From the NCBI GenBank assembly GCA_035529315.1, contig DATKWZ010000039.1, positions 1 to 52,113 of the forward strand: DNA of 52,113 nt. The letters are read 5' to 3'. How positions within the stretch are numbered: the first letter of the stretch is position 1; every line of letters starts with the position of its first letter. The notes under the pieces are model-generated. The model had not been told where the DNA came from and ran no database searches. It was given only the letters and a program-made list of their open reading frames with translations. This DNA is from Anaerolineae bacterium. GTDB taxonomy: Bacteria; Desulfobacterota; Desulfobacteria; Desulfobacterales; ETH-SRB1. Shown here one piece after another: positions 16,850 through 45,338 of the stretch. Both the position numbers and the translations under genes were made by a program.

Positions 16850-17206
16850 TGATTAATCCTTTTTATGTGGTCTCAGTTTGCCATTTTTATTTGGCATGAT
16901 AATGGCAACATCGGCCGATTGCAAGGAAAATGTTTAACAAGTTTGTAAAAAGTCCAACTTCTATGTTGCGCTGCATTCCCTATAATCAGCGGCTAATCTC
17001 TCAAAGGGGATTTTTGCAAGGCAGCTTTCATCAATCATGCAAATTCTTTGAGTCTATTGATAAAATCAGAATTTTAGTGGGGTTGAATATAGAATATAAG
17101 ATAATCACACTTAAAGTTTGATTGCAGATAATTTGTTACATAAGGTTAAAATATTACAAAAATCCTTGATTCTATAATATAAATAATTTAAAAAGATAAA
17201 ATATAG
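16850..17206. other. Intergenic region upstream of riboswitch 1
   Basis: About 350 bases between a minus-strand gene start and the first cobalamin riboswitch. No convincing gene: the only open frame (63 codons from 16930) has no ribosome binding site or recognisable motif. The last 60 bases are very AT-rich and include TATAAT at 17173-17178, a candidate -10 for the riboswitch operon, with only a weak -35. Confidence 0.5.
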
Positions 17207-17392
17207 TTTAGGTGCTCATGTTGAGTTTAATAGGGAACCCTGTGTAAATCAGGGACGGGCCCGCCGCTGTAACTCCGCCCTTTTTTTCGAAAAGGGAACC
17301 TTTTTAGCATTTGCTTTAAACCACTGTTCACGTTGTGTGGAATGGGAAGGTCGCTAAAAAGGCGGGGGAGTCAGAAGACCTGCCTAAGCTAC
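17207..17392 (+). promoter_or_regulatory. Cobalamin riboswitch 1
   Basis: The aptamer hallmarks are in order: TTTAGGTGCTCATG at the 5' end, AATAGGGAACCCTGTGTAAATC, the CGGGCCCGCCGCTGTAA core, and the B12-box AGTCAGAAGACCTGCCT near 17369-17384. It precedes an intrinsic terminator and the corrinoid operon, so high B12 is expected to lower expression. The platform between box and terminator is about 180 bases. Confidence 0.95.
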
Positions 17393-17572
17393 AGTCTTTC
17401 AGGCAATTATTTCACAAGGCTAAAAGGAAAAATCCGAGTAAGTCGTGCTGAGTTGTACGTCGCCGAGGATTTTGACTGACAACTCAGTGAAATTATTTAT
17501 CTGAAAGTCTATATGGGCTTTATTTTCGAGGACGGAAAACAGGCCATGGTAGATCCAAAGGAAAAAAGGGAT

Positions 17573-18206: not shown

Positions 18207-19181
18207 ATGAAGAGGTTGAATTTGATTGTTGTTTTGTTTGTTTTGTCTCTGACATTGGTTGTTTCTTCTTTTGCCATGGGGCCGAAGAAGGATAAAAAGG
18301 CTATTGTTCTGGCCCAATTCGGCACAAGTTATCCTGCTGCGCTGGCAGCGATTACAAATACTCAAAACCAGGTTCAAAAAGCCTTTCCCGATATAACGGT
18401 GAAGATGGCCTTTACCTCTTACATTATCAGGGATATCTGGCATGAAAGGCAGAATGACAGGGAATTCCTGGAGAAAAATAAAGATATCCCCAGAGAAATT
18501 CTGTATATTAAAGGGCCCCTTGCGACAATAGCCGACCTGCAGGATGAGGGATATGATACGATCATTGTGCAGCCTACTCATGTTTTTGAAGGTGAAGAGT
18601 ATCTTGATTTGAAATCGTGTGTGGATGGTCTGGATGCTATCTTCGCGATCAGAACCAGGCATAAGCCTTTTAAAAAGCTAGTTCTGGGAAGGCCGCTGCT
18701 TGGAAAAAAAGGAGAAAAATATCCCTATCATGAGGATCTGAAAACCGCCGCAAAAGCGGTCAGCCGTGATATGGCTCTGGCTGAAAAAAATAATGCGGCC
18801 CTGGTTTACATGGGACACGGGAACAAATATTTATCTACCGGAGCATACATGGAATTTCAGGAAACTTTAAGAAAAATGTACCCGGATATTTCCATATACA
18901 CAGGTGTGGTTGAGGGGTTCCCATCCCCTGAATATGTTGTTTCGGAATTGGTTAAAGATGGGATAAGAAAGGTTGTATTAATGCCTTTAATGATTGTTGC
19001 GGGTGACCATGCGAGAAATGACATGGCCGGAGATGAAGATGATTCATGGAAGACTATCATCGAGTCAAAGGGAATCAAAGTCATCCCGGTGATTCAGGGG
19101 ATGGGTGAAAACCCTGAGGTCGCGAAGATCTTTATTCAGCACATAAAAGATGTAGCTTTAGACAATCAAATCGGGTTGTAG
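18207..19181 (+). CDS. cbiK: Periplasmic sirohydrochlorin cobaltochelatase (CbiKp type)
   Basis: 324 residues. Inserts Co2+ into sirohydrochlorin, the first committed step of anaerobic B12 synthesis. A signal peptide is clear (KR, a hydrophobic stretch at 4-20, cleavage likely after SFA at about 23). Likely metal ligands are H204 (GHGNKY), E236 and H268 (VAGDHARNDM). A periplasmic CbiK paired with a cytosolic one is known from Desulfovibrio, and the window holds both (see 42739). Its periplasmic role is debated and may be metal storage or transport. Confidence 0.92.
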   Translation: MKRLNLIVVLFVLSLTLVVSSFAMGPKKDKKAIVLAQFGTSYPAALAAITNTQNQVQKAFPDITVKMAFTSYIIRDIWHERQNDREFLEKNKDIPREILYIKGPLATIADLQDEGYDTIIVQPTHVFEGEEYLDLKSCVDGLDAIFAIRTRHKPFKKLVLGRPLLGKKGEKYPYHEDLKTAAKAVSRDMALAEKNNAALVYMGHGNKYLSTGAYMEFQETLRKMYPDISIYTGVVEGFPSPEYVVSELVKDGIRKVVLMPLMIVAGDHARNDMAGDEDDSWKTIIESKGIKVIPVIQGMGENPEVAKIFIQHIKDVALDNQIGL

Positions 19182-19218: not shown

Positions 19219-20307
19219 ATGACAATAAAAATACAGGAAAAACCATACAGCTTCAAAAACAGGCTTCAAGAGGCAATCATGACCCAGATATTGCTATTGA
19301 GCATGGTTTTGTGCGGGTTAATTGTGATTTCCGCGTGCATGGGATACATCCATCTTTCCTTTATTGATGTGGTGAAAATTATTTTTGCTAAAATATCCGG
19401 GCAGGCAAGTCTTCTTAAAGGAATGGATGAAATTTTCCCTGTAGTTGTGATGGATGTGCGTTTGCCACGCATATTAACAGCCGCAGTCGTAGGAGGCGGA
19501 CTTGCAGTATCAGGGGCTGTTTTTCAAGGCATCCTGCTTAATCCTCTGGCTGATCCATACACACTGGGGGTATCTGCAGGCGCAGCCTTCGGAGCTTCTC
19601 TGGCATTTTTATTTAATATAGTACTTTTTGATCAAATTGGACTGGGCGCCTGCTGTGTACCTGTTTTTGCTTTCACAGGCGCTGCCGGAACCTTGTTTTT
19701 CGTTATCTATCTTTCATCCGGCAGCGGAGGTTTATCATCCAACAACCTGATCCTCTCCGGAATAATAGTTGCCGCTATTTTGTCGGCTGGAATAAGTTTT
19801 TTAAAGTATGTGGCTGACGAGCAGGTTTCAATAATTATTTTCTGGCTTATGGGAAGTTTTGCTTCAAGGACATGGGCGGATGTTTTTATGACATCTTCAT
19901 TTCTGTGTCTCGGGTTTTTAATCATTATTTTTTATGCAAGAGATCTTAATTTAATGTCTCTCGGCAATAGAACAGCTTCTTCCCTGGGCGTGGACACCGG
20001 AAGGTTGACCCTTATTCTTCTTGTTACTGCATCACTGATAACTGCTATCTGTGTATCCGTATCGGGAATTATAGGATTTGTAGGGCTTCTGGTTCCTCAT
20101 ATGGTGAGGTTTTTAACCGGTCCGGATAACCGAAAACTGATTCCGGTTTCAATGCTGGCCGGAGCCATACTGTTGTTGTGCGCCGATACCGTAACCAGGG
20201 CCATCCTTCCCAGCGAAATACCAATAGGTGTGCTCACGGCATTGATAGGCGGCCCTTTTTTCTGCTATATTTTTCGAAAACGGCAGGTGGCAGAGGCAGA
20301 TAGTTGA
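19219..20307 (+). CDS. btuC: ABC transporter permease, BtuC/FecCD family
   Basis: 362 residues with about ten hydrophobic segments. Typical motifs are DVRLPRILTAAVVGGGLAVSGAVFQGILLNPLADPYTLGVSAGAAFGA (in part) and GFVGLLVPHMVR, found in B12 and siderophore importers. A second possible start at ATG 19279, with AAGAGG before it, would give 342 residues, closer to the family norm. Next to an ATPase and a binding protein in a B12 operon, so corrinoid import is likely; cobalt-chelate or siderophore import is not excluded. Confidence 0.9.
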   Translation: MTIKIQEKPYSFKNRLQEAIMTQILLLSMVLCGLIVISACMGYIHLSFIDVVKIIFAKISGQASLLKGMDEIFPVVVMDVRLPRILTAAVVGGGLAVSGAVFQGILLNPLADPYTLGVSAGAAFGASLAFLFNIVLFDQIGLGACCVPVFAFTGAAGTLFFVIYLSSGSGGLSSNNLILSGIIVAAILSAGISFLKYVADEQVSIIIFWLMGSFASRTWADVFMTSSFLCLGFLIIIFYARDLNLMSLGNRTASSLGVDTGRLTLILLVTASLITAICVSVSGIIGFVGLLVPHMVRFLTGPDNRKLIPVSMLAGAILLLCADTVTRAILPSEIPIGVLTALIGGPFFCYIFRKRQVAEADS

Positions 20308-20309
20308 AC

Positions 20310-21083
20310 ATGGCAATTCAAATTAAAAATCTGTCGTTTTTTTATAAAGAGAGAAGGGTAATAGACGACCTTACTATCGAGATCAAAACCGGGAAATTTT
20401 ACGGAATAATAGGACCAAATGGTTGTGGAAAGACCACCTTTGTCGATCTTATTACAAAACACAAGAAACCTGTGTCCGGAAACATTACTTATAAAGGGAA
20501 GGATCTTTCTTTATATTCAAAAAAAGAATTATCAATGGAAATAGCTCTGGTACCTCAGAATTTTTATATAAACTTTCCGTTTACAGTTGAAGAAATTGTT
20601 ATGATGGGGCGATATCCATATGTTCCCAGGTTTTCTGCTCCGTCTCAGGATGATTACAAGGTTGTATATGACATTATGGAAAAAACCGGAATTTATAAAT
20701 TCAAGGATCGCTTTATTACGGAACTCAGCTCAGGAGAGAGGCAGCGGATAGTTTTTGTCAGGGCGCTTGCCCAGGACACGCCGGTTCTGATTTTAGATGA
20801 GGCGACCTCAAACCTGGATGTTAATTATTCCTTAAACCTTCTCAATATTGCAGCACAAAGGGTTAGTAAAGAGAAAAGGACCGTGATCGCAGTGCTGCAG
20901 GATATTAATCTTGCGGCGATCTACTGCGACTATCTGTTATTTATAAAACAGGGGAGTATTGTTGCCCATGGAAATACCGATGAAATTTTAAACAGGGATA
21001 CGCTTCAATCTGTTTTTAATGTAGATGCAAAGGTATATTTTGAACCCTATTCCGATTCCATGCAGGTTGTTTTTAAAAAATAA
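20310..21083 (+). CDS. btuD: ABC transporter ATP-binding protein, BtuD/FecE type
   Basis: 257 residues. Walker A GPNGCGKT at 35-42, Q-loop near VPQNF, signature LSSGERQRI, Walker B LILDEATSNLD. It energises the BtuC-type permease encoded just before. ATG 20310 lies 2 bases after the btuC stop; a TTG at 20304 would overlap it. Confidence 0.93.
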   Translation: MAIQIKNLSFFYKERRVIDDLTIEIKTGKFYGIIGPNGCGKTTFVDLITKHKKPVSGNITYKGKDLSLYSKKELSMEIALVPQNFYINFPFTVEEIVMMGRYPYVPRFSAPSQDDYKVVYDIMEKTGIYKFKDRFITELSSGERQRIVFVRALAQDTPVLILDEATSNLDVNYSLNLLNIAAQRVSKEKRTVIAVLQDINLAAIYCDYLLFIKQGSIVAHGNTDEILNRDTLQSVFNVDAKVYFEPYSDSMQVVFKK

Positions 21084-21086
21084 ACC

Positions 21087-22097
21087 ATGATTGTTTCATA
21101 TTTTAACTATATAAAAATACTGACTATTATTTTATTTTGTTTGCCTTCCGGAGTTTATGCTCATGACCATACAAAATCTTTTGGTGCTGCAGGTGAAAGG
21201 ATTGTAGTTGATCAAAACAGCAGGAGGATCTTGGTTGAAAAGAGGTTCTCGCGCATTATTTCTCTTTACGGCGCACATACTGAAAATCTCTTTGCATTGG
21301 GGCTGAATAAAGAGATAATCGGGGTTTCCAGACATGAAGTTTTTCCTCCTGAAGCTATGAAAAAGGCTGTTTTCTCATATCATGATGACCCTGAAAAATT
21401 TTTAGCAGCCGATCCTGATCTGGTTTTGATAAGACCAATGATTGATCGCGGATATCCTGACCTTGTGGCAAGGCTTGAAAAAAGCGGTATTACGGTTGTA
21501 TCTTTACAGCCCGGTACAATTGATGATTTGTTCAATTACTGGATGGCGCTTGGCATTCTTACAGGAAAGCAGGAAGAAGCGTCAGAGATGATCAGGGGTT
21601 TTAAGGAAAGTATATCTGTTTTTAAATCATTAACAAAGACTGTCGCAAGAAAAAAAAAGGTCTATTTTGAGGCTATAAACAGCAAAATGAAGACTTTTTC
21701 GCCGGATTCAATGACAATCTTTGCGCTTGAAACAGCAGGGGGGGTAAACATCGCCAATGATGCAAAATCGGTAAGAGGCACAAATATAGCTGCTTACGGA
21801 AAGGAGCGCATATTGTCTAAAGCTTGTGAAATAGATGTTTATCTTGCACAATCAGGCGCTATGAACCGCCCTGTAATATCTCTTATTAAAAAAGAACCGG
21901 GCTTTAAAGCAATAAAGGCGATAAAGGAAAATAAAATATATATTATCGATGAGATGATTGTATCGCGACCGACTTTAAGGCTTCTTAAAGGAATATATGG
22001 GATCGGCAAAATCCTTTATCCTGATATTTTCAGTGAAGATGTATTGAATGGGGTTCAAGGTTCAAGGTTCAGGGTTCAGGGTTCAGAATATCGGTAG
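21087..22097 (+). CDS. btuF: Periplasmic corrinoid-binding protein, BtuF-like
   Basis: 336 residues with a signal peptide (hydrophobic 8-20, cleavage near VYA at 25) and a PBP fold: RIISLYGAHTENLFALGLNKEIIGVS, then AADPDLVLIRP and the C-terminal lobe ending near ILYPDIF. The last 16 or so residues (NGVQGSRFRVQGSEYR) are encoded by a heptamer repeat (22051-22085) and are unlikely to be ancestral. Context makes it the substrate receptor for the BtuCD pair; ligand inferred. Confidence 0.87.
   Translation: MIVSYFNYIKILTIILFCLPSGVYAHDHTKSFGAAGERIVVDQNSRRILVEKRFSRIISLYGAHTENLFALGLNKEIIGVSRHEVFPPEAMKKAVFSYHDDPEKFLAADPDLVLIRPMIDRGYPDLVARLEKSGITVVSLQPGTIDDLFNYWMALGILTGKQEEASEMIRGFKESISVFKSLTKTVARKKKVYFEAINSKMKTFSPDSMTIFALETAGGVNIANDAKSVRGTNIAAYGKERILSKACEIDVYLAQSGAMNRPVISLIKKEPGFKAIKAIKENKIYIIDEMIVSRPTLRLLKGIYGIGKILYPDIFSEDVLNGVQGSRFRVQGSEYR
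22051..22086 (+). repeat. Heptamer GGTTCA(A/G) repeat at the end of btuF
   Basis: Five consecutive 7-base units (GGGTTCA/AGGTTCA) are read in-frame as the C-terminus of BtuF. Similar short-period repeats occur at 27191 and 46701 with a GTTCGAT theme. It seems a repeat array invaded or replaced the original stop region. Confidence 0.85.
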
Positions 22098-30870: not shown

Positions 30871-31535
30871 ACGCTTTTATTTCCTGGAGCGGAGGAAAGG
30901 ACGCGGCTCTTTCTTATTACAGGGCGATGAAAGATTTTCACATAACCCATCTTTTGAATATGGTTGCTGAAGACGGTCTAATATCCCGATCCCACGGTAT
31001 CAGGACGGAAATATTAAGGTTGCAGGCCGAGGCAATGGGTATTACGATAGTTCAGCCGAGAAGCTCCTGGGAAACATACGAGGCTGAATTTAAAAGGGCC
31101 CTGTCCGGCTTGAAGGATAAAGGGGTTAAAGCAGGCATCTTCGGGGATATCGATTTTGAAGGACACAGGGAATGGGTGGAAAGGGTCAGCAGAGAATCGG
31201 ACATGGATGTTGCCTTGCCCCTGTGGGGAGAAAAGAACAGAAAAAAGATCATAGAGGAGCTGATAGAAAGCAGGTTTAAAGCCGTTGTTGTGGCTACCGG
31301 AAAAGATTTGCTGGGTCCGGAATGGCTGGGGCGCATGATTGATCATGATTTTGTCAAAGATATCTCGAAAATCAAGGGGGTTGATATCTCCGGTGAAAAC
31401 GGGGAATATCATACTTTCGTGGTATCCGGGCCGATATTTAAGAAAAGGATCAACATCATAAAATCTGAAAAAATTACCCGGGACAAGCGCTGCTTTCTTG
31501 ACATATCGGAGTGTGAATTAGTAGAAAACTTGTAA
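30849..31535 (+). CDS. DUF71/COG2102 (diphthine-ammonia-ligase-like) PP-loop ATPase, B12 subgroup candidate
   Basis: 228 residues: PP-loop SGGKDAA from 14, SHGIRTEILRLQAEAMGI, and the family motif ENGEYHTFVV near 184. The eukaryotic relative (Dph6) amidates diphthine; bacteria lack diphthamide. Comparative genomics has proposed a DUF71 subgroup in B12 salvage, and the location between cbiH and cbiB fits. Substrate remains inferred. Confidence 0.87.
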   Translation: MEENKKLNAFISWSGGKDAALSYYRAMKDFHITHLLNMVAEDGLISRSHGIRTEILRLQAEAMGITIVQPRSSWETYEAEFKRALSGLKDKGVKAGIFGDIDFEGHREWVERVSRESDMDVALPLWGEKNRKKIIEELIESRFKAVVVATGKDLLGPEWLGRMIDHDFVKDISKIKGVDISGENGEYHTFVVSGPIFKKRINIIKSEKITRDKRCFLDISECELVENL

Positions 31536-34627: not shown

Positions 34628-34659
34628 CATATTCAGGGAAAAGTGTAGCTTTAAAAATT

Positions 34660-34825
34660 GGTTTTAGGTGCCTTTAAGGCATAAAAGGAAATCCCGTGAA
34701 AATCGGGAGCGAGCCCGTCGCTGTAATCGGGGACGAAAACCGCAAAATGTCACTGTCCAGTTTAAGCTGGATGGGAAGGCGCGGTAAGTAGTGTGATCCG
34801 AGAGTCAGAAGACCTACCTGAAACA
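34660..34825 (+). promoter_or_regulatory. Cobalamin riboswitch 2
   Basis: Hallmarks: TTTTAGGTGCC, AAAAGGAAATCCCGTGAAAATCGGGAGC, GAGCCCGTCGCTGTAATCGGG, then the B12-box GAGTCAGAAGACCTACCT at about 34802-34819. It controls the TonB receptor / CobN-like operon through the terminator at 34891. More compact than riboswitch 1. Confidence 0.95.
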
Positions 34826-34890
34826 TTGTTTGGCAACCTCGCGGACAAGGGGGGGGCTATTCATTAAAAATCTGAGGATAAAAAAGGGAT

Positions 34891-34929
34891 ATCCCCGGAT
34901 CGATTAATTTCGATTCGGGGATTTTTTTT
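34891..34929 (+). terminator. Intrinsic terminator of riboswitch 2
   Basis: ATCCCCGGATCG / CGATTCGGGGAT stem followed by eight T's, preceded by AAAAAAGGGAT. Nearly identical to the riboswitch 1 terminator (17573-17612), so the two expression platforms share a recent origin or undergo gene conversion. Confidence 0.88.
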
Positions 34930-34952
34930 GTGAGGGAAGAAAGGAGGTTTCT

Positions 34953-37070
34953 TTGAAACGTTTTATTTTGTTTACGGCTGTTTTTTTCTGTGGTTTTTTG
35001 CTGGTTCTTTCATCGGTAAACAGAGCATCGGCCCAAAATGGAGATAAAGAGGTCTATAAGCTGGAAGAGGTTGTTGTAACCGCCACCCATAAAATGAAGA
35101 TGCTGGATACACCGATGAGTATTTCCATTATAACAGCCGGGGAACTGGAAGAAATGGGCGCGAAAAATATTGCTGAAGCCCTCAGAAAACTACCCGGTGT
35201 TATAGATGTAAGTGCTAAAGACGATGCCGTAGCCATACGCGGCATTCAGTCCTCCATGGCTGGAGGACCTGTAATACTTATTGATGGAGTTTCCCAGAAG
35301 ATAGGTGATTACAGGTTTGATCAGTTCAGTTTTATACCTGTCTCACAGGTCGAGCGGATTGAGGTCCTTCGTTCTGCCGGAATCACCTATGGCCCTGGTT
35401 CCGCACGGGGTGTTATCAATGTCATTACCAAAAAAAGCAAAAAAGCCAAGCCAATTAACCTTGATATTTCAGGAAGTTACGGTTCGTGGAACACTCATAA
35501 TGAATATGCAGGATCATCCGGCAAGGTGAATCAATGGGATTATTTTGTAAATGCCGCAAATTACAGCACTGACGGGTATAAAGAGGAAAAGCAAAACAGA
35601 ACCTCCGGCCTTTTGAAATTTGGCTGCAACCTGTCTGAACAAACCCGTCTTGGCATCAGCGGCAATATTCTAAAAAATCAACATGATACTGCATATGGTC
35701 TCTGGAAATATGATTATCAGCTGCAAAATTATCGGAGAGATATTCATTTCCCAAAAAGCGAAACAGACCAGAAGCTGATCTGGCATAATAAAACAGACCA
35801 GGATGTATCAATCTATGCCCTTGAGTTTTCCCATAAAGATTCTGAACTTTTTATGGATTCAGTACTCTCTTATACGAATTATAAGGAAACATATATAGAT
35901 AATCATGACCTTTTTACCTCGCCAAGCACTTCGCGTGGCGAAATCGATGATAAAGACCAGGACACATATACCTTCACAGTGTCAGGAGGCTATAATTTTG
36001 AGTTTGGAGATGTCGGTTATACTCCGACTATTGGTTTAAACGTAGAAAATATCGAATTTTGCCAGCGCAGAACATACCCTTTGGATCCAACCATAAGTAC
36101 TGCCGCATATGATTTTGATATTTATGAACAACAATACGGCCTGTTTTGGGATAATGACTTTCTTTTTGGGAAAAAATGGGGCTTGAAAATCGGGGCACGT
36201 GTGGATGAGGCAGAACTTAAATTTGAAGACAGAGTCCCGAATAAGGTTGACGTGGACGAGACTATGTATAGCTGGTCCGTGGCCCCTTCCTGCCACTTCA
36301 ACGACAAGGCTAACGTATATGTTTCTGCAGGAAAAAATTACTGGTTCCCGACACCGAGGTATTATGCCTGGGCAGCGGAAAAAGGCGGTAATGAGAATCG
36401 GCCGGAAGACCTGAAGCCTGAAGAGTCCCTGACATATGAAATCGGATACAAACATATGATCCACAGGGTTTTTAATATCAATCTCACCGGATTTTTTACA
36501 GAATATAAAGATAAATTTGCCGGTTATTACGAAGGCTCAATCTGGAAAGGGATGAAAAATACAGGTGAAGCGGAAATAAAAGGGGTTGAACTGGAAGCAG
36601 GTGGACGAGTGCTCCCCTGGTTCGGTTATCGTTTTTCCGGAACCTATCTCAATGCTGAATGGACAAAGGGAGAAATGCGTGTTTATGACCATCCGTCAAA
36701 TACGCTGGTTTTAAAGAATATTGAGGGATATGATATCATCCACATTCCCCAATACACGTATGTGGCCGGACTGGATTTTTATCCTCTGGAATGGCTTAAA
36801 TGCAGTATGGATATCAATTATTATGGGTCATATTACGTGGATTATCTAAACCGGATTAAATACCCATCAAAGGCTACTGTTGACGCCAACATGTCTTACA
36901 GTTTGAAAAATTGGAAGTTTTGGCTGCTCGGCAAAAACATCTTTGATGAAGAGATTGAAAATGTTCAGAACTCAACGGGCAAACTTACGGCGGCTAATGG
37001 TGAACCCAAGAACGCCTACTATGTCAAGGACGGAGCATATTTTGAAGCGGGCGTGAGTTATCATTTTTAG
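34953..37070 (+). CDS. TonB-dependent outer-membrane receptor (B12-regulated)
   Basis: 705 residues from a TTG start with AAAGGAGG before it. Signal peptide cleaved likely after ASA (about 27), TonB box EEVVVTA at 38-44, plug domain with IRGIQSSMAGGPVILIDGV and VERIEVLRSAG, then a 22-strand-type barrel of alternating aromatic strands ending in YHF (terminal aromatic F). The riboswitch suggests a cobamide, cobalt chelate or other tetrapyrrole ligand. By operon layout it corresponds to HmuR. Confidence 0.92.
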   Translation: MKRFILFTAVFFCGFLLVLSSVNRASAQNGDKEVYKLEEVVVTATHKMKMLDTPMSISIITAGELEEMGAKNIAEALRKLPGVIDVSAKDDAVAIRGIQSSMAGGPVILIDGVSQKIGDYRFDQFSFIPVSQVERIEVLRSAGITYGPGSARGVINVITKKSKKAKPINLDISGSYGSWNTHNEYAGSSGKVNQWDYFVNAANYSTDGYKEEKQNRTSGLLKFGCNLSEQTRLGISGNILKNQHDTAYGLWKYDYQLQNYRRDIHFPKSETDQKLIWHNKTDQDVSIYALEFSHKDSELFMDSVLSYTNYKETYIDNHDLFTSPSTSRGEIDDKDQDTYTFTVSGGYNFEFGDVGYTPTIGLNVENIEFCQRRTYPLDPTISTAAYDFDIYEQQYGLFWDNDFLFGKKWGLKIGARVDEAELKFEDRVPNKVDVDETMYSWSVAPSCHFNDKANVYVSAGKNYWFPTPRYYAWAAEKGGNENRPEDLKPEESLTYEIGYKHMIHRVFNINLTGFFTEYKDKFAGYYEGSIWKGMKNTGEAEIKGVELEAGGRVLPWFGYRFSGTYLNAEWTKGEMRVYDHPSNTLVLKNIEGYDIIHIPQYTYVAGLDFYPLEWLKCSMDINYYGSYYVDYLNRIKYPSKATVDANMSYSLKNWKFWLLGKNIFDEEIENVQNSTGKLTAANGEPKNAYYVKDGAYFEAGVSYHF

Positions 37071-37090
37071 GAAAGGGGAGGTCAATTTCA

Positions 37091-37840
37091 ATGTTAAAAC
37101 AACTATGGATAACCGGTATTCTGATCGCCTTTTCTGTTTTTGGGATAAAAGTGGGCTTGGGTCTGGGGGCTCAGATATACAACAGGACCGTGCCCCCTGG
37201 TAAAAAAGTCATTTTTCTTGTTGGATGCTTTTTTATCTATCTGATCCTTTTCTTTTGCCTGTATTATGTGATTACCCGTTTTAATTTATTAAATTATCTG
37301 GATCGGTTTGTAAATATGCTTCAATACGGCATGCTGCTTCATTTAGCAGTGGCTCTGGGGCTTCTTCTCTGGGGAGGCATGCTCCTTCAAAACCCTGCCG
37401 AAAATAAGCATCTTCCCCTTCGGGCCAGCTTGCTCCTGATTTTGCCCTGCCCGGTATGCGCAACGGTGATCCTGCTCAACCTCACCTTTGCCTATTCGCT
37501 TTTTACCTTATCACCGCTTTTAACCACGTTAACCCTTTTTGCCCTTTTCAGCAGCATAATTTTTGTTACATCTGCTATTATTTTCCCGTTTCGCCATAAA
37601 ATCGGTTCCGGGAATTCTTTTCTGGGCTTATCCATGGCTTTAGTTGCCCTTTACTTTCTTTTTACAGTTATCATCGCACCGATTTACCCGGAAATAAAGG
37701 CTGCGTTTACCATGGCCACTTCCAACAGCCCGGTAAGTCAGGTAGACCTTTTTTACACGGCTATTTTAGGAGTGATTGTCTTTATTCTTGGATGTGCCGG
37801 ATTCATAAAGACTTACATTGCAAAAGGAGGAATTAAGTGA
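37091..37840 (+). CDS. DUF2162-type polytopic membrane protein
   Basis: 249 residues, about seven hydrophobic segments, and a PCPVC motif at 119-123 inside or next to a membrane segment, which could bind metal or carry a redox pair. I recall DUF2162 proteins beside MotA-like, DUF2149 and CobN-like genes in anaerobes, the set called HmuT/U/V/S in haem operons. Overlaps the next start by four bases. Confidence 0.75.
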   Translation: MLKQLWITGILIAFSVFGIKVGLGLGAQIYNRTVPPGKKVIFLVGCFFIYLILFFCLYYVITRFNLLNYLDRFVNMLQYGMLLHLAVALGLLLWGGMLLQNPAENKHLPLRASLLLILPCPVCATVILLNLTFAYSLFTLSPLLTTLTLFALFSSIIFVTSAIIFPFRHKIGSGNSFLGLSMALVALYFLFTVIIAPIYPEIKAAFTMATSNSPVSQVDLFYTAILGVIVFILGCAGFIKTYIAKGGIK

Positions 37841-38487
37841 ATATCTTTCCCGCGTTTCAAACTATCCTGTACACAATTTCAACCGCCCTGCTCTATCCGG
37901 TGGTGATCATGCTCATTTTTCTGTGTCTTTGGCTGATTGTGTATGCTGGAGGATTTCTGGCTGAACTGGTAAAACGGAAACGTTTTCGTTCCGATAAGCA
38001 CCTGGCGAATTTTTTGGAGGATATTAAAAAAGCAGAACGTTTACCTCCTGAACTATCCGAAAATCTACCTCTTCACGTTACAAGCTATGCAAATGAACTA
38101 AACAATATTGTCCATGGTGGTATTCTGTTCCGTGATGAAAAAGTTGAAGATCTGAATCAACGGAAGGAACATTCACTTACAAGGGAGGTTGATAAGATAC
38201 GTCTTATCGTACGCATAGGGCCGAGTCTGGGTCTTATGGGAACATTGATTCCTATGGGCACCGGCCTGGCCGGATTAACTCAGGGGAATATGGCCCAGCT
38301 TTCATCCAGCCTTATTCTGGCCTTTACTACAACTGTTGTGGGCTTGGCTCTTGGAATTACGGCCCATTTATTTTCAGTTGTCAAAGAACGCTGGGTTATC
38401 GAAGATATGCGCTACATAAACCTGATAACAGAAGCTATGACTAAAAATATTAAGGACTATCCGGATAATGAAATACCTGAAAAATAG
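37837..38487 (+). CDS. MotA/TolQ/ExbB-family proton channel protein
   Basis: 216 residues, hydrophobic segments near 15-40, 125-145 and 158-185, with the family motif IRLIVRIGPSLGLMGTLIPMG and SSSLILAFTTTVVGLALG. Not a close copy of the ExbB at 43604. With the DUF2149 protein it would form a pmf-driven motor for the CobN-like protein or receptor. Confidence 0.88.
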   Translation: MNIFPAFQTILYTISTALLYPVVIMLIFLCLWLIVYAGGFLAELVKRKRFRSDKHLANFLEDIKKAERLPPELSENLPLHVTSYANELNNIVHGGILFRDEKVEDLNQRKEHSLTREVDKIRLIVRIGPSLGLMGTLIPMGTGLAGLTQGNMAQLSSSLILAFTTTVVGLALGITAHLFSVVKERWVIEDMRYINLITEAMTKNIKDYPDNEIPEK

Positions 38488-38812
38488 CCGCCTGGGACGT
38501 TTGGGAAAAGCAAAACAGGAAGATCCTTTGCTCGGTGTAGCGAATCTTTTTGACGTGGCGCTTGTCTTTATTGTGGCGCTCCTTCTTTCCCTCATGGCAA
38601 CTTACCAGATTTTGGATTTCTTCTCTGAAACGAGCGAAATAACTATTATAAAGAAGAATGAAGACGGACAAATGGAAATTATTACCAAAAAAGGCAAAGA
38701 GATTAAGGTGGAAAAAGTAACCGACAGGAAAATCGGCGGAGAAGAAGGAACCAAACTAGGGACGGCTTATCAACTAAAGAATGGGAGGATGATTTATGTG
38801 CCGGAAGAGTGA
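38468..38812 (+). CDS. DUF2149 protein, ExbD-like single-span partner
   Basis: 114 residues: short cytosolic N-terminus, one membrane span at about 27-48 (NLFDVALVFIVALLLSLMAT, with an aspartate at the start, as in ExbD/MotB), and a periplasmic domain with IITKKGKEIKVEK and TAYQLKNGRMIYVP. Overlaps the channel gene by 20 bases and the CobN-like gene by 17, indicating tight coupling. Confidence 0.8.
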   Translation: MKYLKNSRLGRLGKAKQEDPLLGVANLFDVALVFIVALLLSLMATYQILDFFSETSEITIIKKNEDGQMEIITKKGKEIKVEKVTDRKIGGEEGTKLGTAYQLKNGRMIYVPEE

Positions 38813-41800
38813 GCTTATAAATCAGAGGTTGGAAGTCAGAGGCCTGAAGCGAAAAAACAGGCTGCTATGGACATGTATAATTGTCCTCTGTCTATGTATT
38901 TCGCTATCTTTTCAGGCGATTGCGCAGGACAAAGAGAAAATTACCCTGCTTGTAGGCGCATCCAATTCCTGCAAGGTAAGCGATGCTATTTCCGATGTAG
39001 TTAAAATCCCTGAAGCAGCCGGTAGTTATGACTTTTATTTTTATACCAATAAGGATTTAGAAGAGGGAAAGATCGACCCAAAGATTATTGCCCAATCCAG
39101 GATTCTCGTTGTTGATGATATGCATCGAAAATTGGCGGATTATTCCCTGAAAAATGCGGATTTCGAAAAAACAAAGGTTTACGGCCTCTGCGGCGCAGCA
39201 AAAGAACCGGGAAAAATCATCTCTGACCCCAAAGTAAAACAATATTATAATCCTGCAACAAGCAAAAATATCAGGAATCTCCTCCTTTTTCTTCTTAATC
39301 GTGATTGCGGTCTTGATATTAACTACGAAGAACCAAAGACTTTGCCTGAAACAGGTATCTTTCATCCGGAAAGTGATAGAATCTTTACGAGATTTGAAGA
39401 ATATCTTTCCTGGTATAAAGAAAAAGGGTTCTATAAAAAAGATGGTTTCTGGGTAGGAATACCTGATTTATCTTCTTATGCTTTTCCTGGGGAAACAGGA
39501 GAAATCGTAAGTTCCCTTATTCGCGATCTGGAAAAATATAATATTAATGTCCTTCCTGTTTATTCCCGTCCATCACATCTTGCCCTAAAAAAATTCTTTT
39601 TTGATGAAAATGGAAACAGCCGGGTTGATATCATCTGCGCCTTTTCCTTTAAGTTCTCATCCGTTGATAATGAGAATACAATAAACAATTTAATGAAATT
39701 GGGAGTTCCCCTTTTAAACGTCATTAGAATACCATATCAAACTATTCCCGAATGGAAAGAATCCACCCAGGGTCTGGGACCGATGGTAATTTCGTATGCA
39801 ATATGCTTCCCTGAATTTAATGGACTGATAGAACCTTCTGTTTTAGGTGGAAAACTGGATCTGAAAGATGAACGCACCGGCAAAGAGGCTTACGTGCATA
39901 AGCCTATCGCAGAAAACATTGAATTTTTCGTTAAACGAATAAAAGCCTGGAGGAACCTTCAGACAAAAGCAAACAAAGACAAGAAGATTGCTATTATTTA
40001 TTACAACCATACCCCAGGCAAGCAGAATGTAGGGGCAACTTATCTTAATGTCTTTAGAAGTTTAGAGGTTCTTTTAAAAAGAATGAAAGAAGATGGTTAT
40101 GCCATTAATGGAGAGCTTCCTTCAGAAGAAGACATTAAAAATCTTGTTTTAAAAAGCGGTCGTAATATCGGCTCCTGGGCTCCAGGGGAACTCGATGAAT
40201 TGGTCGGGACCAAAAGGGTTGTCCGGCTACCTGTCTCTGAATATTTGCAATGGTGTAAAGAGATAAATGGGGACTACAGGAAGAAATTAGAAGCCGAATG
40301 GAACAATGTAGAAGATTCAAAAATTATGATTAAGAATAAAGAGATTATTATTCCTTGCATAGACTTAGGCAATGTCATCCTTCTTCCCCAGCCATCAAGG
40401 GGTTGGTGTGACGACCCGATAAAACTATATCATTCCACCCAGCTCTGGCCTCATCATCAATACACTGCCTTTTATCTCTGGCTGAAAAAGAAGTTTGGAG
40501 CAGATGCCATTATTCATCTCGGCACACACGGCACCCATGAATGGCTTCCCGGTAAACAGGCCGGCTTAAGCCAATCCTGCCCTCCCGAAGTTCTTATCCA
40601 GGACATGCCTAATCTTTATCCCTATATCATGGATGACACAGGAGAAGGAATACAGGCTAAACGCCGAGGAAGAGGAGTAATTATTGATTATCTTATTCCG
40701 GCAATGAAAAAGGCAGGGGCTTACGAAGAATATGGTGATTTAGCCGGCCTTATTGGTGAATATAACGATGCTCTTACTAAAGACAAGACCTTAGCCGGGG
40801 AAAAATTGAAGAGGATTGAAGTACTGGTGACAAAATTAGGCATTGATAAAGACCTTCTTCTCAAGGAGATAGACGAAGAGGCGGTTGAGGAAATTGAACA
40901 CTATCTTATTGAACTGCAGGAAAATAATATTCCCTACGGACTTCACACGTTTGGAATTTCGCCTGAAGGCGAGGCAATGGCGGAGTTTGGCCGGATAATT
41001 AAAGAAAGAAATAAAGACCTTGCTTTGAACGAAATTAAGAAAAAACTGGGTCTCTGCTCTTTAGAGATAGAGAGACTCATTGCCGGTCTTGAGGGGAAAT
41101 ATATTCCTCCAGGTGAAGGCAACGATCCTTTGAGAAATCCCGAGGCTATCCCTACAGGGAAAAACTTTTACGGTTTTGACCCGAAAAAGGTCCCTTCAAG
41201 GGACGCTTACAGCTTAGGGAAAAAGATGGCCGAGGGTATGATAGAAAAATATCTTAAGGAGAAAGGAGAGTATCCGGACAAAATCGGACTCATCCTCTGG
41301 AGCATAGAGTTGCAGCGGAATGAAGGGACGCAGGTAGGGACAGCTCTTTACCTTTTAGGGATGAAGCCTGTCTGGGATAAAAATGATAAAGTAATCGGGG
41401 TTGAGCCTATCCCTGGAGCTATACTTAAGCGGCCCAGGATAGATATTCATATTCAGGCTTCCGGACTTTTTAGAGACTGCTTTCCCAATGTTATTTTGCT
41501 TCTGGATGAGGCTGTGCGTCAGGCTTCCCAGCTCAAGGATGTGGAGAATTTTATCGCCGGACATAGCTTGAAGATAAAAGACTATCTTCTGAACAAAGGA
41601 TATAACGAAGAAGAGGCGGAAAACTTAAGCAAAATAAGAGTTTTTGCTCCCAAACCAGGCAGCTATGGAACAACGGTGGAGGACCTTATTTCAAGCAGTG
41701 GATTATGGGAAAGCGATGATGAAGTTGCCGATGTCTTTATCAATTTTGTTTCTTTTGGATATGGCAAAGGTGTTTGGGGAAAACCCCTTAAATCTGCGTA

Positions 41801-42737
41801 TAATAAAAATCTGGGGGATATTAAGATTACAATGCACACCAGGTCCAGTAACCTTTTCAGGAATATGGACACCGATGATGTGTTTGCATGTTTAGGAGGC
41901 CTTTCCCTGGCTGTAAAAAAGATAAGCGGCGAATATCCTGATGTTCTCATTTCCAGGCAGGAAGACAGAAAAAATCCCCATATAGAGGATATTGAAAAAG
42001 CCCTGGGAGAAGAGCTGCGCGCCCGTTATTTAAATCCTGAATGGATCGAAGGGATGAAAAAAGAAGGGTATGCAGGAGCCCGGGAGATGGATAAATTTGT
42101 GGAACATCTGTGGGGTTTTCAGGTCACAACTCCTTTTGCTGTTGATAAGACCAAGTGGGAACAGGTCTATGAGGTCTACATAAAAGATAAATACGGCCTT
42201 GACTTAAAAGAGTTTTTTGACAAAAACAACCCATGGGCCCTGCAATCCATATCGGCCCGGATGCTGGAAGCCGATCGTAAAAAATACTGGAAGGCCCCTG
42301 AAGAGATGAAGAAAAAACTGGCCCGAACCTATGCCATGAACGTAATCGAAAAAGGCGTTGCCTGCTGCGAGCATACATGCAACAATCCGATGCTCCAGCA
42401 GTTCGTTGCCAATATCATTTCATTATATGGCCTGCTTACCCCCCAGCAGTTAGACCAGTTCAAAACGGTAATTGCAAAAGCAACCGGCATGACCCAGGAA
42501 GAAAATGAAGCTAAGAGCAAAAAGACCAGGGAGAGTTTGAAAAAGACTATCGAGGAAATTCAAAAGGAAGAGAGCGTAAAAGCCAAAACAAAAGGGAAAA
42601 AGATTGAAGGTTTTGAGATGGTTGAAGAAAAACCGGAAGATACAAAAATAACCGCCTCCGGTTCGTCATGGGTAGTTATGGCCATTGTCATTGGCCTCCT
42701 GAGCCTTTTGGTCATCGGGTGGAGAAGAAAAATATAA
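38796..42737 (+). CDS. Exported, membrane-anchored CobN/HmuS-like chelatase
   Basis: 1313 residues. CobN-family core with HLGTHGTHEWLPGKQ around residue 574, KPGSYGTTVEDLI and HTRSSNLFRNMDTDDVFACLGGL. Unlike cytosolic CobN it has a signal peptide (h-region about 25-41, cleavage near AIA-QD at 44) and a C-terminal span (about 1290-1309) with RRKI after it. So the catalytic body is outside the cytosol. No cobS/cobT in the window. A CCEHTCNNP motif lies near 1190. HmuS relatives remove metal from haem; here B12 control suggests cobalt or corrinoid chemistry. ATG 38796 has GGGAGG before it. Confidence 0.87.
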   Translation: MCRKSELINQRLEVRGLKRKNRLLWTCIIVLCLCISLSFQAIAQDKEKITLLVGASNSCKVSDAISDVVKIPEAAGSYDFYFYTNKDLEEGKIDPKIIAQSRILVVDDMHRKLADYSLKNADFEKTKVYGLCGAAKEPGKIISDPKVKQYYNPATSKNIRNLLLFLLNRDCGLDINYEEPKTLPETGIFHPESDRIFTRFEEYLSWYKEKGFYKKDGFWVGIPDLSSYAFPGETGEIVSSLIRDLEKYNINVLPVYSRPSHLALKKFFFDENGNSRVDIICAFSFKFSSVDNENTINNLMKLGVPLLNVIRIPYQTIPEWKESTQGLGPMVISYAICFPEFNGLIEPSVLGGKLDLKDERTGKEAYVHKPIAENIEFFVKRIKAWRNLQTKANKDKKIAIIYYNHTPGKQNVGATYLNVFRSLEVLLKRMKEDGYAINGELPSEEDIKNLVLKSGRNIGSWAPGELDELVGTKRVVRLPVSEYLQWCKEINGDYRKKLEAEWNNVEDSKIMIKNKEIIIPCIDLGNVILLPQPSRGWCDDPIKLYHSTQLWPHHQYTAFYLWLKKKFGADAIIHLGTHGTHEWLPGKQAGLSQSCPPEVLIQDMPNLYPYIMDDTGEGIQAKRRGRGVIIDYLIPAMKKAGAYEEYGDLAGLIGEYNDALTKDKTLAGEKLKRIEVLVTKLGIDKDLLLKEIDEEAVEEIEHYLIELQENNIPYGLHTFGISPEGEAMAEFGRIIKERNKDLALNEIKKKLGLCSLEIERLIAGLEGKYIPPGEGNDPLRNPEAIPTGKNFYGFDPKKVPSRDAYSLGKKMAEGMIEKYLKEKGEYPDKIGLILWSIELQRNEGTQVGTALYLLGMKPVWDKNDKVIGVEPIPGAILKRPRIDIHIQASGLFRDCFPNVILLLDEAVRQASQLKDVENFIAGHSLKIKDYLLNKGYNEEEAENLSKIRVFAPKPGSYGTTVEDLISSSGLWESDDEVADVFINFVSFGYGKGVWGKPLKSAYNKNLGDIKITMHTRSSNLFRNMDTDDVFACLGGLSLAVKKISGEYPDVLISRQEDRKNPHIEDIEKALGEELRARYLNPEWIEGMKKEGYAGAREMDKFVEHLWGFQVTTPFAVDKTKWEQVYEVYIKDKYGLDLKEFFDKNNPWALQSISARMLEADRKKYWKAPEEMKKKLARTYAMNVIEKGVACCEHTCNNPMLQQFVANIISLYGLLTPQQLDQFKTVIAKATGMTQEENEAKSKKTRESLKKTIEEIQKEESVKAKTKGKKIEGFEMVEEKPEDTKITASGSSWVVMAIVIGLLSLLVIGWRRKI

Positions 42738-42738
42738 A

Positions 42739-43542
42739 ATGGATACATCGAAAACACCCATTGTTTTAACCGCCTTCGGCACCACCACAAGGGCGATGGA
42801 TACCTATAATTATATGGACAAGATTATCAGAGAAAGATTTTCTAATCATAAAATAGAATGGGCCTATTCATCAAGGATGGTCAGGGATTTCAGCAAAAAA
42901 AGAGAAAAAATCTATTTAAAGAGCCCTCAGCAGGTTTTGTCCGATCTTGTCGCTGAAGGTTATCCCTGGGCCGTTGTCCAGTCGATTCATCTTGTCTGCG
43001 GAAATGAGTTTGATCGTCTTGTTGAAGAAATTCAGCATGTACCGATTCGTACGTCAGTAGGACTTCCCCTTCTGCACAGTCCCAAAGATTATGATAGAGT
43101 AGCTGCCGGCATCGTTGATTTGCTGCCGGAATTGAAAGAAGAATGTGTCATCATTGTAGGTCATGGAACCGATCATCCTATGTGGGCGGCCTATATTGCT
43201 TTTGAACACAAGCTTCAGGTGCGGTATGGTCCTGACATCCATGTCGGGATGATCGAAAATGAAGACTCCTGCGAGCGGATTGTTCAGGCGGTTAGGGAAA
43301 GCGGGAAAAGGAAAGCTCTTTTAATACCTTTTATGCTTGTGGCCGGCGTCCATTTCAAGGAGGATCTTGTTGGAAACGGCGAAGATTCATGGAAAAACAG
43401 GATTGAAAGGGAGGGGATTGAGGTGCGAGCCATTGATAAGGGACTTGGTTTTCATCGGCCGATTGTCGAGATTTTTATGGATCATATCAAGGATGCCCTC
43501 GATGCCATTCCAAACACAGCCTCCTCAAGTTTCGCATCCTGA
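42739..43542 (+). CDS. cbiK: Cytosolic sirohydrochlorin cobaltochelatase (CbiKc type)
   Basis: 267 residues, no signal peptide. Likely ligands H142 (GHGTDHPMW), E173 (GMIENED) and H205 (VAGVHFKEDLVGNGEDSW) align with the periplasmic copy at 18207. Starts one base after the CobN-like stop, in the riboswitch 2 operon. This copy is the better candidate for making cobalt-sirohydrochlorin for CbiL. Confidence 0.92.
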   Translation: MDTSKTPIVLTAFGTTTRAMDTYNYMDKIIRERFSNHKIEWAYSSRMVRDFSKKREKIYLKSPQQVLSDLVAEGYPWAVVQSIHLVCGNEFDRLVEEIQHVPIRTSVGLPLLHSPKDYDRVAAGIVDLLPELKEECVIIVGHGTDHPMWAAYIAFEHKLQVRYGPDIHVGMIENEDSCERIVQAVRESGKRKALLIPFMLVAGVHFKEDLVGNGEDSWKNRIEREGIEVRAIDKGLGFHRPIVEIFMDHIKDALDAIPNTASSSFAS

Positions 43543-43603
43543 ATTTACTGTAAATTACTTTCTATAAATCCCTGAACCATGGACACTATTGATTGGAGGA
43601 ATA

Positions 43604-44236
43604 ATGCTGGAGATATTCATTAAGGGCGGGCCGGTAATGTATCCGCTTTTAGCCTGTTCGATTCTTGTTCTTACTGTAATAATAGAAAGGTCTTTATTCT
43701 GGATAAGTGTAAATATGCATCGCGATTATTCTATTATAGATGAGGTCCTTGAACTATGCAGAGCAGGAGATTGGGAGTCGGTGAGAATAAAGACAAAAGG
43801 ATCAAAGGATTTTATTATCAAAATACTTGTAACAGGCATTGTTCACAGAGAATTTTCAATGACCAAGGCCATGGAGTCGGCGGCAGCAGAAGAGATCAGG
43901 AGGTTGCGTCGATATATGGGCGTGCTGGATACCATGATTACCGTTGCGCCTCTGCTCGGTATTTTCGGAACAGTTATCGGTATTATAATGTCATTCGAGG
44001 CGCTGGGCTCAGCCGGAATAGAACATCCTCAGGCTGTTACCGCAGGAATAGCGCAGGCTCTTATAACCACAGCAACCGGACTTGGGATAGCTATTCTGTC
44101 TGTATTTCCATATAATTTTTTCAATTCCCGTATTGAGAAGGCTGCCCTTAACATAGAAAAATACGCTACAAGCCTTGAAATAGTCTATGAGAAATTAATC
44201 CAGCCTTCCACAACACAAAAGGAGAATAATGCATGA
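43604..44236 (+). CDS. exbB: Biopolymer transport protein ExbB
   Basis: 210 residues; three membrane spans near 13-32, 110-135 and 150-175, with the motif LDTMITVAPLLGIFGTVIGII. GGAGGA precedes ATG 43604 (a TTG at 43589 is also open). Forms with ExbD the motor powering TonB. Its 5' end and leader are duplicated at 34509-34627. Confidence 0.93.
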   Translation: MLEIFIKGGPVMYPLLACSILVLTVIIERSLFWISVNMHRDYSIIDEVLELCRAGDWESVRIKTKGSKDFIIKILVTGIVHREFSMTKAMESAAAEEIRRLRRYMGVLDTMITVAPLLGIFGTVIGIIMSFEALGSAGIEHPQAVTAGIAQALITTATGLGIAILSVFPYNFFNSRIEKAALNIEKYATSLEIVYEKLIQPSTTQKENNA

Positions 44237-44643
44237 AGCTCAACCTGAACGCACACAAAAGTGTACGTATTGAAATGCTTCCTTTGATTGACGTTGTTTT
44301 CCTTCTTCTAGTGTTTTTTATATATGCGATGCTTTCAATGGCTGTGCATCGCGGATTGCCGATTTTGCTGCCTGATTCTTCCACGGCAGAAATCGAAAAA
44401 AAGTCGGCATTATCCGTAACGGTGAAAACAGATGCAACGATTTATGTTGATGAAAAACTGATTTCCATTGAGAACCTGGCTGCTTTTTTAAAGAAAAAGG
44501 CTGAAATTGATAAGGATACCGGTATTCTCCTTTTTGTTGAAAAGACCCTTTCATATCAGAAATTATTCCGAGTTTTAGACCAGATAAGAATAGCGGGCCT
44601 GAACCGGATTTCTCTTCAAGCGGAGGCTGAACAGCAGCCGTGA
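44233..44643 (+). CDS. exbD: Biopolymer transport protein ExbD
   Basis: 136 residues, one span (about 16-38) with the proton-carrying aspartate D20 in LPLIDVVFLLLVFF, and a periplasmic domain. Overlaps exbB and tonB by four bases each. Confidence 0.93.
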   Translation: MKLNLNAHKSVRIEMLPLIDVVFLLLVFFIYAMLSMAVHRGLPILLPDSSTAEIEKKSALSVTVKTDATIYVDEKLISIENLAAFLKKKAEIDKDTGILLFVEKTLSYQKLFRVLDQIRIAGLNRISLQAEAEQQP

Positions 44644-45338
44644 AACGAATTCTGATTGCTGTAATAATGGCTGTTGGAATACATGGGCTTCTTCTGGGGG
44701 TAGAGTTTAACCGTATAAGAGGTGTATCCCTGGAAAGACCGAAATCCAGTATTGTGACTATGACACTGGTTTCCAGGCAGCCGGGAAAGGCGGAATCTAA
44801 ACCGGTTATTAACGAGCGAGCGTCTGTCGATAGAAATAAAAACAAGGCAGAAAAAAAAAGGCTTTTAGCTAAACCGGAAAAGAAAAAACATGTTATACGA
44901 TCATCAAACGCAGCAAATATTTATGATAAAAAGAAGAAAACAGAACCCGGAATAATTTCAAAAAAAGATAATTTTACCCGTGAACCAGCGAGGGGCATTT
45001 TAAAGGATAGAAGTTCTACTGAGGCAAAGCAGAGTTTCTCAGGCAGTCAGGGATTTAACTCTGTGAAAAAAGCCATTCCAATATATGATAAAAATCCTTT
45101 GCCGGAATATCCATTAATTGCCAGGAGAAGAGGCTTTCAGGGCACAGCAGTTCTTGAGGTTATGGTCGACCGAAACGGAAGGGTAGGGGATTTAAGGATT
45201 TTTAAGTCCAGTGGTTATAAAGTGTTAGACAGTGCTGCGGAGGAATCTGTCAGGGAGTGGATATTTAAGCCCGCGATAAAAGGGGATGAAAAAGTTGAAA
45301 TGTGGGTCAGAGTCCCTGTATGCTTTCAGTTGAAATGA
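44640..45338 (+). CDS. tonB: TonB-family energy transducer
   Basis: 232 residues: N-terminal anchor (IAVIMAVGIHGLLLG), a long K/E/R-rich periplasmic spacer (40-150) poor in the usual proline, and the C-terminal TonB fold (EYPLIARRRGFQGTAVLEV, then SAAEESVREWIFKPA). Starts with GTG at 44640. It ends overlapping the convergent glycerate kinase by 13 bases. Would drive the receptor at 34953. Confidence 0.93.
   Translation: MKRILIAVIMAVGIHGLLLGVEFNRIRGVSLERPKSSIVTMTLVSRQPGKAESKPVINERASVDRNKNKAEKKRLLAKPEKKKHVIRSSNAANIYDKKKKTEPGIISKKDNFTREPARGILKDRSSTEAKQSFSGSQGFNSVKKAIPIYDKNPLPEYPLIARRRGFQGTAVLEVMVDRNGRVGDLRIFKSSGYKVLDSAAEESVREWIFKPAIKGDEKVEMWVRVPVCFQLK

Follow-up and report, generated by a model that had tools for sequence, protein, structure and literature searches.

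Among the closest known relatives of the system considered here are the hmuYRSTUV operons of Bacteroidota, which encode an exported, doubly anchored CobN-like protein, HmuS, together with a receptor, a membrane protein, a MotA/ExbB-like protein, and a DUF2149 protein (PMC12583661). As a haem dechelatase, HmuS depends on NADH but not on ATP, and it is active in recombinant form (PMC12583661). HmuU and HmuV, the latter structurally resembling ExbD (PMC10100974), have been assigned to energising the receptor (PMC10100974, PMC12583661), and the accessible text of a study of P. gingivalis HmuS leaves HmuT, HmuU, and HmuV open (PMC13227078). Hmu-like operons behind cobalamin riboswitches are already known from Bacteroides, with a role in cobalamin suggested for those of Bacteroides fragilis (PMC10100974), and a cobN-exbB-exbD-tonB cluster without CobS/CobT, its exact role stated to be unknown, was reported in 2012 from plasmid pSZ77 (pGLOV01) of Geobacter (Trichlorobacter) lovleyi (PMC3403914). 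Here, we describe a related nine-gene run in the window, by which we mean the whole analysed stretch of 52,113 nucleotides on the forward strand of contig DATKWZ010000039.1 (assembly GCA_035529315.1), along which all positions are counted. Judged by its sequence, the CobN-like protein of this run is neither HmuS nor CobN and belongs to a separate clade of anchored relatives that go with MotA and DUF2149 partners.

Across anchored CobN relatives, a stator pair of MotA and DUF2149 stands in place of AAA/VWA partners. Among 131 CobN-family proteins, 99 have a C-terminal transmembrane stretch and 32 do not. MotA and DUF2149 genes lie near 84 of the 99 and near 1 of the 32 (L041, cut off at its contig end), whereas AAA/VWA genes lie near 1 of the 99 (L067, which also has the stator) and near 12 of the 32; many blanks in these counts are explained by flank limits, and partner p-values are only rough, with kinship ignored. 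The set of 131 omits L001, L002, L097, L106, L108, L109, L115, L123, L124, L125, and L127, which are the window itself, a near-copy, or presumed repeats (L115 being a repeat by presumption), as well as proteins shorter than 1040 residues or holding X. A tree of 65 of these proteins, including three HmuS rows, was built by a quick method, rooted on BchH, and supported by the Shimodaira-Hasegawa-like approximate likelihood ratio test (SH-aLRT) only. One clade (SH-aLRT 100) takes in all 41 stator-linked rows and three others, including a Marinobacter protein, and 10 of the 11 AAA/VWA-linked rows fall in a second clade (SH-aLRT 100, 17 rows), the eleventh, L151, pairing with L146 outside both.

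The HmuS clade and a 27-row clade holding the CobN-like protein of the window are separate, each with SH-aLRT 100, inside one larger clade, and the protein lies outside the clade of CobN with AAA/VWA partners. An original prediction, made from the sequence of the window, had set the protein apart from CobN, and the phylogeny bears this out, placing it outside HmuS as well. The kinship with the Hmu gene set proposed in that prediction is supported. The gene is the sole PF02514 gene of its genome, which is 97.8% complete, and a cobaltochelatase AAA/VWA subunit (CobS/CobT or ChlID) was not found there, in agreement with the earlier remark that no cobS or cobT accompanies it: the sole TIGR02442 match in the genome scores 25.8 bits against a cut-off of 779. 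On the tree and this missing subunit, a functional CobN was rejected. Elsewhere in the same phylum, the CobN encoded at loci L135-L154 lacks a membrane anchor; 9 of the 20 stretches contain AAA/VWA genes, and several lie by TonB receptors and BtuF-like genes, an arrangement predicted to be a parallel, ATP-driven one.

All nine genes of the run, assigned by Pfam, lie on the forward strand behind a cobalamin riboswitch and a terminator-like stem. The riboswitch aptamer (RF00174, 34649..34835; 104.5 bits, E 3.4e-25, gathering score 31.5) is followed by a stem of 13 pairs with a T run (34891..34922), seen in a pattern scan and in the sequence, that would serve as its expression platform; the scan finds this pattern at two sites in the region against 0.7 in shuffles. 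The genes encode a TonB-dependent receptor with a TTG start at 34953 behind GGAGG (34953..37070; PF00593, PF07715), a DUF2162 polytopic membrane protein with a PCPVC motif (37091..37840; PF09930, 131 bits), a MotA/TolQ/ExbB-like stator subunit (37837..38487; PF01618, 40.8 bits), a DUF2149 protein with a single predicted membrane helix (38468..38812; PF09919, 110 bits), the CobN-like chelatase (38796..42737; PF02514, 1075 bits), a CbiK-family cobaltochelatase whose start lacks a signal-like stretch (42739..43542; PF06180, 187 bits), ExbB (43589..44236; PF01618, 105.8 bits), ExbD (44233..44643; PF02472, 97.2 bits), and TonB (44640..45338; PF03544, 76.4 bits). Neighbouring genes overlap or lie at most 46 bp apart throughout. 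The parts named in the original prediction, from riboswitch and receptor to a CbiK presumed cytosolic, are thus all present, and MotA-DUF2149 is, as it held, a pair of the kind linked to the proton-motive force. The extent it gave falls short at both ends, as the riboswitch begins at 34649 and the run continues past CbiK to 45338; the ExbB-ExbD-TonB genes were overlooked, along with a second CbiK at 18207 and a BtuF-CbiZ fusion in relatives, both described below.

Unlike hmuYRSTUV, this run has a B12 riboswitch, no HmuY among its nine genes, and ExbB-ExbD-TonB and CbiK genes alongside. A cobalamin riboswitch ahead of a Hmu-like set without HmuY is shared with the B. fragilis operons, which are described in passing, with no mechanism and no DUF2162, CbiK, or CbiZ context in the accessible text of the report (PMC10100974). 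The BtuS1 locus may be one of those operons; BtuS is, as relayed second-hand, the third CobN type of Rodionov 2003 (PMC6460266), and Methanosarcina barkeri is reported to have two BtuS proteins and to lack the full operon (PMC10846266). The G. lovleyi plasmid carries receptor-DUF2162-MotA-DUF2149-CobN-ExbB-ExbD-TonB, likewise behind B12 riboswitches, and differs in that CobN and ExbB have no CbiK between them and an extra receptor stands at the end; MotA, DUF2149, and DUF2162 go undiscussed in the available part of that paper (PMC3403914).

The CobN-like protein has a hydrophobic stretch at its N-terminus and a C-terminal transmembrane stretch (hydropathy only), consistent with the extracytoplasmic location first proposed. 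It shares with the CobN of CobS/CobT systems the protein family and an Asp in the pocket, and departs from it in the export stretch and membrane anchor, in having MotA and DUF2149 for AAA/VWA, and in its clade. Nine CobN or BchH models of NCBIfam match it, all under cut-off, the best at 969 bits of 1619 needed. The catalytic histidine is present as in HmuS: His578, in HLGTHG, is the equivalent of His538 in the HmuS form HFG(T/A)HG, and it is conserved in 130 of 131 CobN-family rows, that is, across the superfamily. Three marks of the HmuS family fail. The haem-ligand motif His254-Gly-Arg (HGR) is absent, with SFKF aligned there; the Met-rich insertion is absent, with 38 residues compared to 149, 254, and 338 in three HmuS; and in place of His1209 and Glu1212 of HmuS (LSLDHxxEFMGG) the protein reads MDTDDVFACLGG, with Asp1028 and Ala1031, such that TDD replaces LDH in the pocket. 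At the HmuS Met79 position a Met aligns but the next Gly does not, and one of the three HmuS references has Arg. On the three failing marks, plain HmuS was rejected, which weakens the haem uptake that the original prediction had entertained as its alternative.

The Asp at pocket column 1028 (DSDD or near variants) is the mark of CobN, found in all seven rows labelled CobN, where HmuS (3/3) and BchH (2/2) have His; the seven labels are our own and include an unannotated Kovacikia row and the Marinobacter row, which sits within the stator clade at the end of a very long branch. Among 96 anchored non-HmuS proteins, the column holds Asp in 90, Gly in 5, and His in 1. The mark is not absolute, as the residue in other cytosolic relatives is Asp, Cys, Ser, Gly, or His. 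Two further features mark the 82 stator-linked non-HmuS proteins: a CCxHxC motif close to the C-terminus (71 of 82), which could be a metal hand-over site, and an extra His at 553 (77 of 82). Together, the pocket column (Asp versus His) and the partner type (stator versus AAA/VWA) offer simple tests for sorting the many proteins annotated as CobN.

Copies of the module are found in further genomes, of Desulfobacterota type and others. Scanning species genomes and keeping the best 80 of 311 yielded 77 distinct loci; 46 of them are well flanked, and among these a same-strand MotA gene lies no more than 9 kb away in 44, DUF2149 in 44, DUF2162 in 43, and a TonB receptor in 43, with ExbB in 8, ExbD in 6, and TonB in 5. 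Because similar gene orders recur in many loci, the run is not a chance assembly. Of 247 genomes of the same phylum, 30 have DUF2149 above cut-off; PF02514 accompanies it in 28 of the 30 and occurs in 43 of the remaining 217 (71 of 247 in all; Fisher p 2e-15, kinship ignored). In the two exceptions, G120 and G184, the DUF2149 matches (L126 and L128) contain internal stops and no PF02514 match was found; G120, from the same genus as the source of the window, has likely lost the module. After setting aside these two and L129-L131 (under cut-off and ExbD by models), 29 of 34 stretches around DUF2149 matches were kept. A CobN-like gene, whole or partial, is present in 25 of the 29; in L099, L100, and L119 the contig runs out next to the module, and the L120 stretch contains none. 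As these loci were picked regardless of CobN, chance clustering was rejected. Among 72,556 plasmids, DUF2149 matches occur in 11 records. The stretch read includes a CobN-family gene in 10 of them but not in a plasmid of Paracoccus alcaliphilus, which has DUF2149, a short receptor-model match, and no CobN-family gene in 12.5 kb.

Most copies that can be assessed are preceded by a cobalamin riboswitch, although such genomes contain no more than about 1 to 17 copies of RF00174 each (47 of 48 genomes searched). Of 20 DUF2149-centred loci of the same phylum that offer at least 400 bp upstream (L099, L100, L101, L104, L106, L115, L119, L121, and L127 being left out of the 29), 15 have one no more than 500 bp from the first gene; the misses are L102, L116, L117, L118, and L124, the last with a riboswitch about 4 kb upstream. 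For 16 assessable named loci, a riboswitch lies within 700 bp in 13, the misses being L005 (2.3 kb), L006, and L026. On a Comamonadaceae plasmid, MotA-DUF2149-CobN follows a riboswitch (40.2 bits, gathering score 31.5), and the 16 kb read contain no receptor; in Azospirillum the riboswitch lies downstream of DUF2149. No B12 riboswitch was found in the stretches read for three HmuS loci, Runella, Pseudoalteromonas, or Diaphorobacter. Many relatives also carry a fusion of Peripla_BP_2 and CbiZ (BtuF-CbiZ), with both domains in 33 of 33 full-length copies and, in each, an export-like hydrophobic stretch within the first 70 residues. Because CbiZ is the adenosylcobinamide amidohydrolase family, corrinoids would be handled at the same place. 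The survey thus recovers the predicted receptor-DUF2162-MotA-DUF2149-CobN sets, mostly under cobalamin riboswitches, and supports the predicted link to cobalt or corrinoid metabolism.

These observations suggest, with a probability that we put at roughly 0.4, that the anchored CobN-like protein takes cobalt from captured corrinoids in the periplasm, driven by the proton-motive force through MotA-DUF2149 in place of an ATP motor. In this mechanism, low B12 would lift termination, and the receptor, energised by the ExbB-ExbD-TonB of the run, would import a corrinoid, which in many relatives the exported BtuF-CbiZ would trim. The stator would then strain the CobN-like body across the membrane such that the metal is freed near His578, and the C-terminal CCxHxC would hand cobalt to the PCPVC site of DUF2162 for import. 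Finally, the cytosolic CbiK would insert the cobalt into sirohydrochlorin for the cbi pathway. If true, this would explain how anaerobes recycle scarce cobalt, add another role for HmuU and HmuV, and answer the question left in 2012 by the G. lovleyi plasmid, and it bears on how extracytoplasmic CobN relatives operate without ATP.

The membrane partners show conserved features. The Asp29 in the DUF2149 helix is kept in 71 of 72 rows, with Glu in Runella, and the protein may be an ExbD-like partner. The MotA-like profile has a weak match in the PDB to 8vvn, a MotA/TolQ/ExbB protein (22.7 bits). In DUF2162, P119, C120, P121, and C123 of the PCPxC motif are invariant in 24 of 24 aligned proteins; unlike this DUF2162, three HmuT proteins lack the motif, one having CYLC at that place. 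Motifs of the PCPxC type are known from metal transporters, and DUF2162 is a candidate metal permease. In the DUF2162 slot of a Runella slithyformis plasmid, the protein has NicO and DsbD_2 matches below cut-offs and a HAFEADH stretch, which fits the HX4DH mark of nickel/cobalt permeases, and is thus weakly nickel-permease-like. The exchange of stator for AAA partners, the pocket mark, and the metal-permease role were not found in the literature searched, which did not cover most subscription papers.

Several points weigh against cobalt removal. Cobalt is very hard to take out of corrins chemically, and an enzyme capable of this is not known to us. When their profiles were compared, DUF2149 and ExbD gave no homology (hhalign probability 1.1%; 0.4% for a DUF2162 control), leaving only the transmembrane Asp alike; the DUF2149 profile matched nothing in the PDB (best 17.6 bits), and its structure model was poor (mean predicted local distance difference test, pLDDT, 59) and left out of the fold search. 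The DUF2162 model, of fair quality (pLDDT 80.4), gave no clear fold match. CbiK lies near just 18 of the 46 well-flanked relatives, and the BtuF-CbiZ fusion, whole or partial, near 26. Among solved structures, the N-terminal third of the CobN-like protein is nearest ChlH, the middle third CobN, and the C-terminal third HmuS. The genome has CbiM, on another contig, so that cobalt may have a different entry route, though no NicO match was found in the genome; δ-proteobacteria with CbiK are said to have no known cobalt transporters, with CbtX predicted (PMC545781, as far as its available text goes). The activity of recombinant HmuS with NADH and without ATP further implies that the stator is not strictly required for that enzyme.

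A rather unlikely alternative is corrinoid import without demetallation, in which the CobN-like protein binds a corrinoid, and the stator and DUF2162 move it, intact or as a fragment, over the inner membrane. The riboswitches and the BtuF-CbiZ fusion suit this reading equally, and metal release is a matter of inference. However, BtuC-, BtuD-, and BtuF-like importer genes are already in the window, DUF2162 is small and carries PCPxC, with a nickel-permease-like counterpart in Runella, and the catalytic histidine is kept nearly throughout the family. It is similarly doubtful that MotA-DUF2149 merely energises the TonB receptor while the chelatase works alone. This is the published view of HmuU and HmuV in the parts of the two reports available (PMC10100974, PMC12583661). 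Because the run has its own ExbB-ExbD-TonB, though, the pair would be redundant for its receptor, and all three genes also accompany DUF2149 on the same strand within 12 kb in 8 of 77 relatives. In addition, the module cores L096, L087, and L111 have no receptor in the stretch read, and Methanosarcina acetivorans, among the control genomes, has both DUF2149 and PF02514 (adjacency not seen) although it has no outer membrane.

Insertion rather than removal, with a periplasmic cobaltochelatase re-metallating scavenged corrinoids that are metal-free or hold the wrong metal, is quite unlikely. It would account for the CobN-like Asp in the pocket, CobN itself being an enzyme that inserts cobalt, and a published guess for Chlorobaculum has cobalt inserted into imported cobalamin (PMC8620254, on its accessible text). 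Yet HmuS, the solved relative with the same partners, removes metal (PMC12583661, likewise), and the adjoining CbiK gene and permease-like partner fit release better.

Very improbable is a haem-iron dechelatase of the plain HmuS type whose regulation has drifted to B12: HmuS is the best whole-protein match among solved structures (477 bits, with CobN at 458), the partner families are shared, and the receptor scores higher with the haemin model of NCBIfam (113.9 bits) than with the B12 model (92.4), but the siderophore model stands above both (149.9) with none at cut-off, the three models each match 44 of 44 receptors such that substrate is not readable from these families, and the separate clade, the failing marks, the lack of HmuY, and the three HmuS loci read without a B12 riboswitch all speak against it.

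We consider equally improbable that the module takes another metal from tetrapyrroles (nickel from an F430-type compound or iron from siroheme), with B12 control reflecting competition between pathways. This reading draws on two copies beside other metalloenzymes, at neither of which a B12 riboswitch was found. On the Runella plasmid (L081, 5563-13597), a receptor and the module core sit within a cluster for NiFe-hydrogenase maturation, with hypABF, hypCDE, and hydrogenase genes. At L102 (4974-15460) and L155 (421-10320), the module is followed by nifH, open reading frames of 118 and 126 residues, nifD, nifK, nifE, a NifN-like gene (under cut-off), and nifB; the L102 genome also carries a further module copy, L103, accompanied by two B12 riboswitches. 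From these isolated examples, the module would seem to supply a metal to the adjoining metalloenzyme, and a corrinoid may thus not be the substrate in every copy, which counts against the main reading. The two are, however, one case each, whereas most assessable copies are behind B12 riboswitches, many with CbiZ or CbiK. Building on the removal of cobalt, a wider and tentative proposal would be that, in bacteria and archaea, a proton-driven MotA-DUF2149 pair replaces the AAA+ motor of class I chelatases outside the cytosol, with the B12 branch tearing cobalt from corrin and related branches doing the same for the iron of haem and the nickel of a nickel tetrapyrrole. On an unannotated Cupriavidus plasmid (L092, 3428-11184), a gene for an anchored CobN-like protein, one for CobW, and another CobN-like stretch stand next to each other, with no stator genes found in 11 kb.

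A second cobalamin riboswitch on the forward strand (17193..17401; 94.1 bits) heads a cbi operon with CobO, a second CbiK gene (18207..19181; PF06180, 259 bits), BtuC-, BtuD-, and BtuF-like genes of an ABC importer (19219..22097; FecCD, ABC_tran, Peripla_BP_2), and cbi genes. For the BtuC- and BtuD-like genes, models of a vitamin B12 permease and a corrinoid ATPase rank first, both under cut-off, and the BtuF-like gene matches the BtuF model weakly (39.7 bits against a cut-off of 234). A periplasmic CbiK occurs in Desulfovibrio, and the signal-peptide-like N-terminus of this second CbiK resembles it, whereas the CbiK of the nine-gene run has no such start. CbiK genes with signal-like starts also occur in loci L040, L041, L049, L057, L060, L069, and L077. 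Inside the cbi operon, the product of positions 23578-24651 has 357 residues and a nucleoside-recognition (Gate) match below cut-off; it could be the predicted cobalt transporter CbtX. Between CbiH and CbiB (29920-31535) lie genes for an asparagine-synthetase-like protein and a Dph6-like ATP-pyrophosphatase, possibly serving an unusual amidation step.

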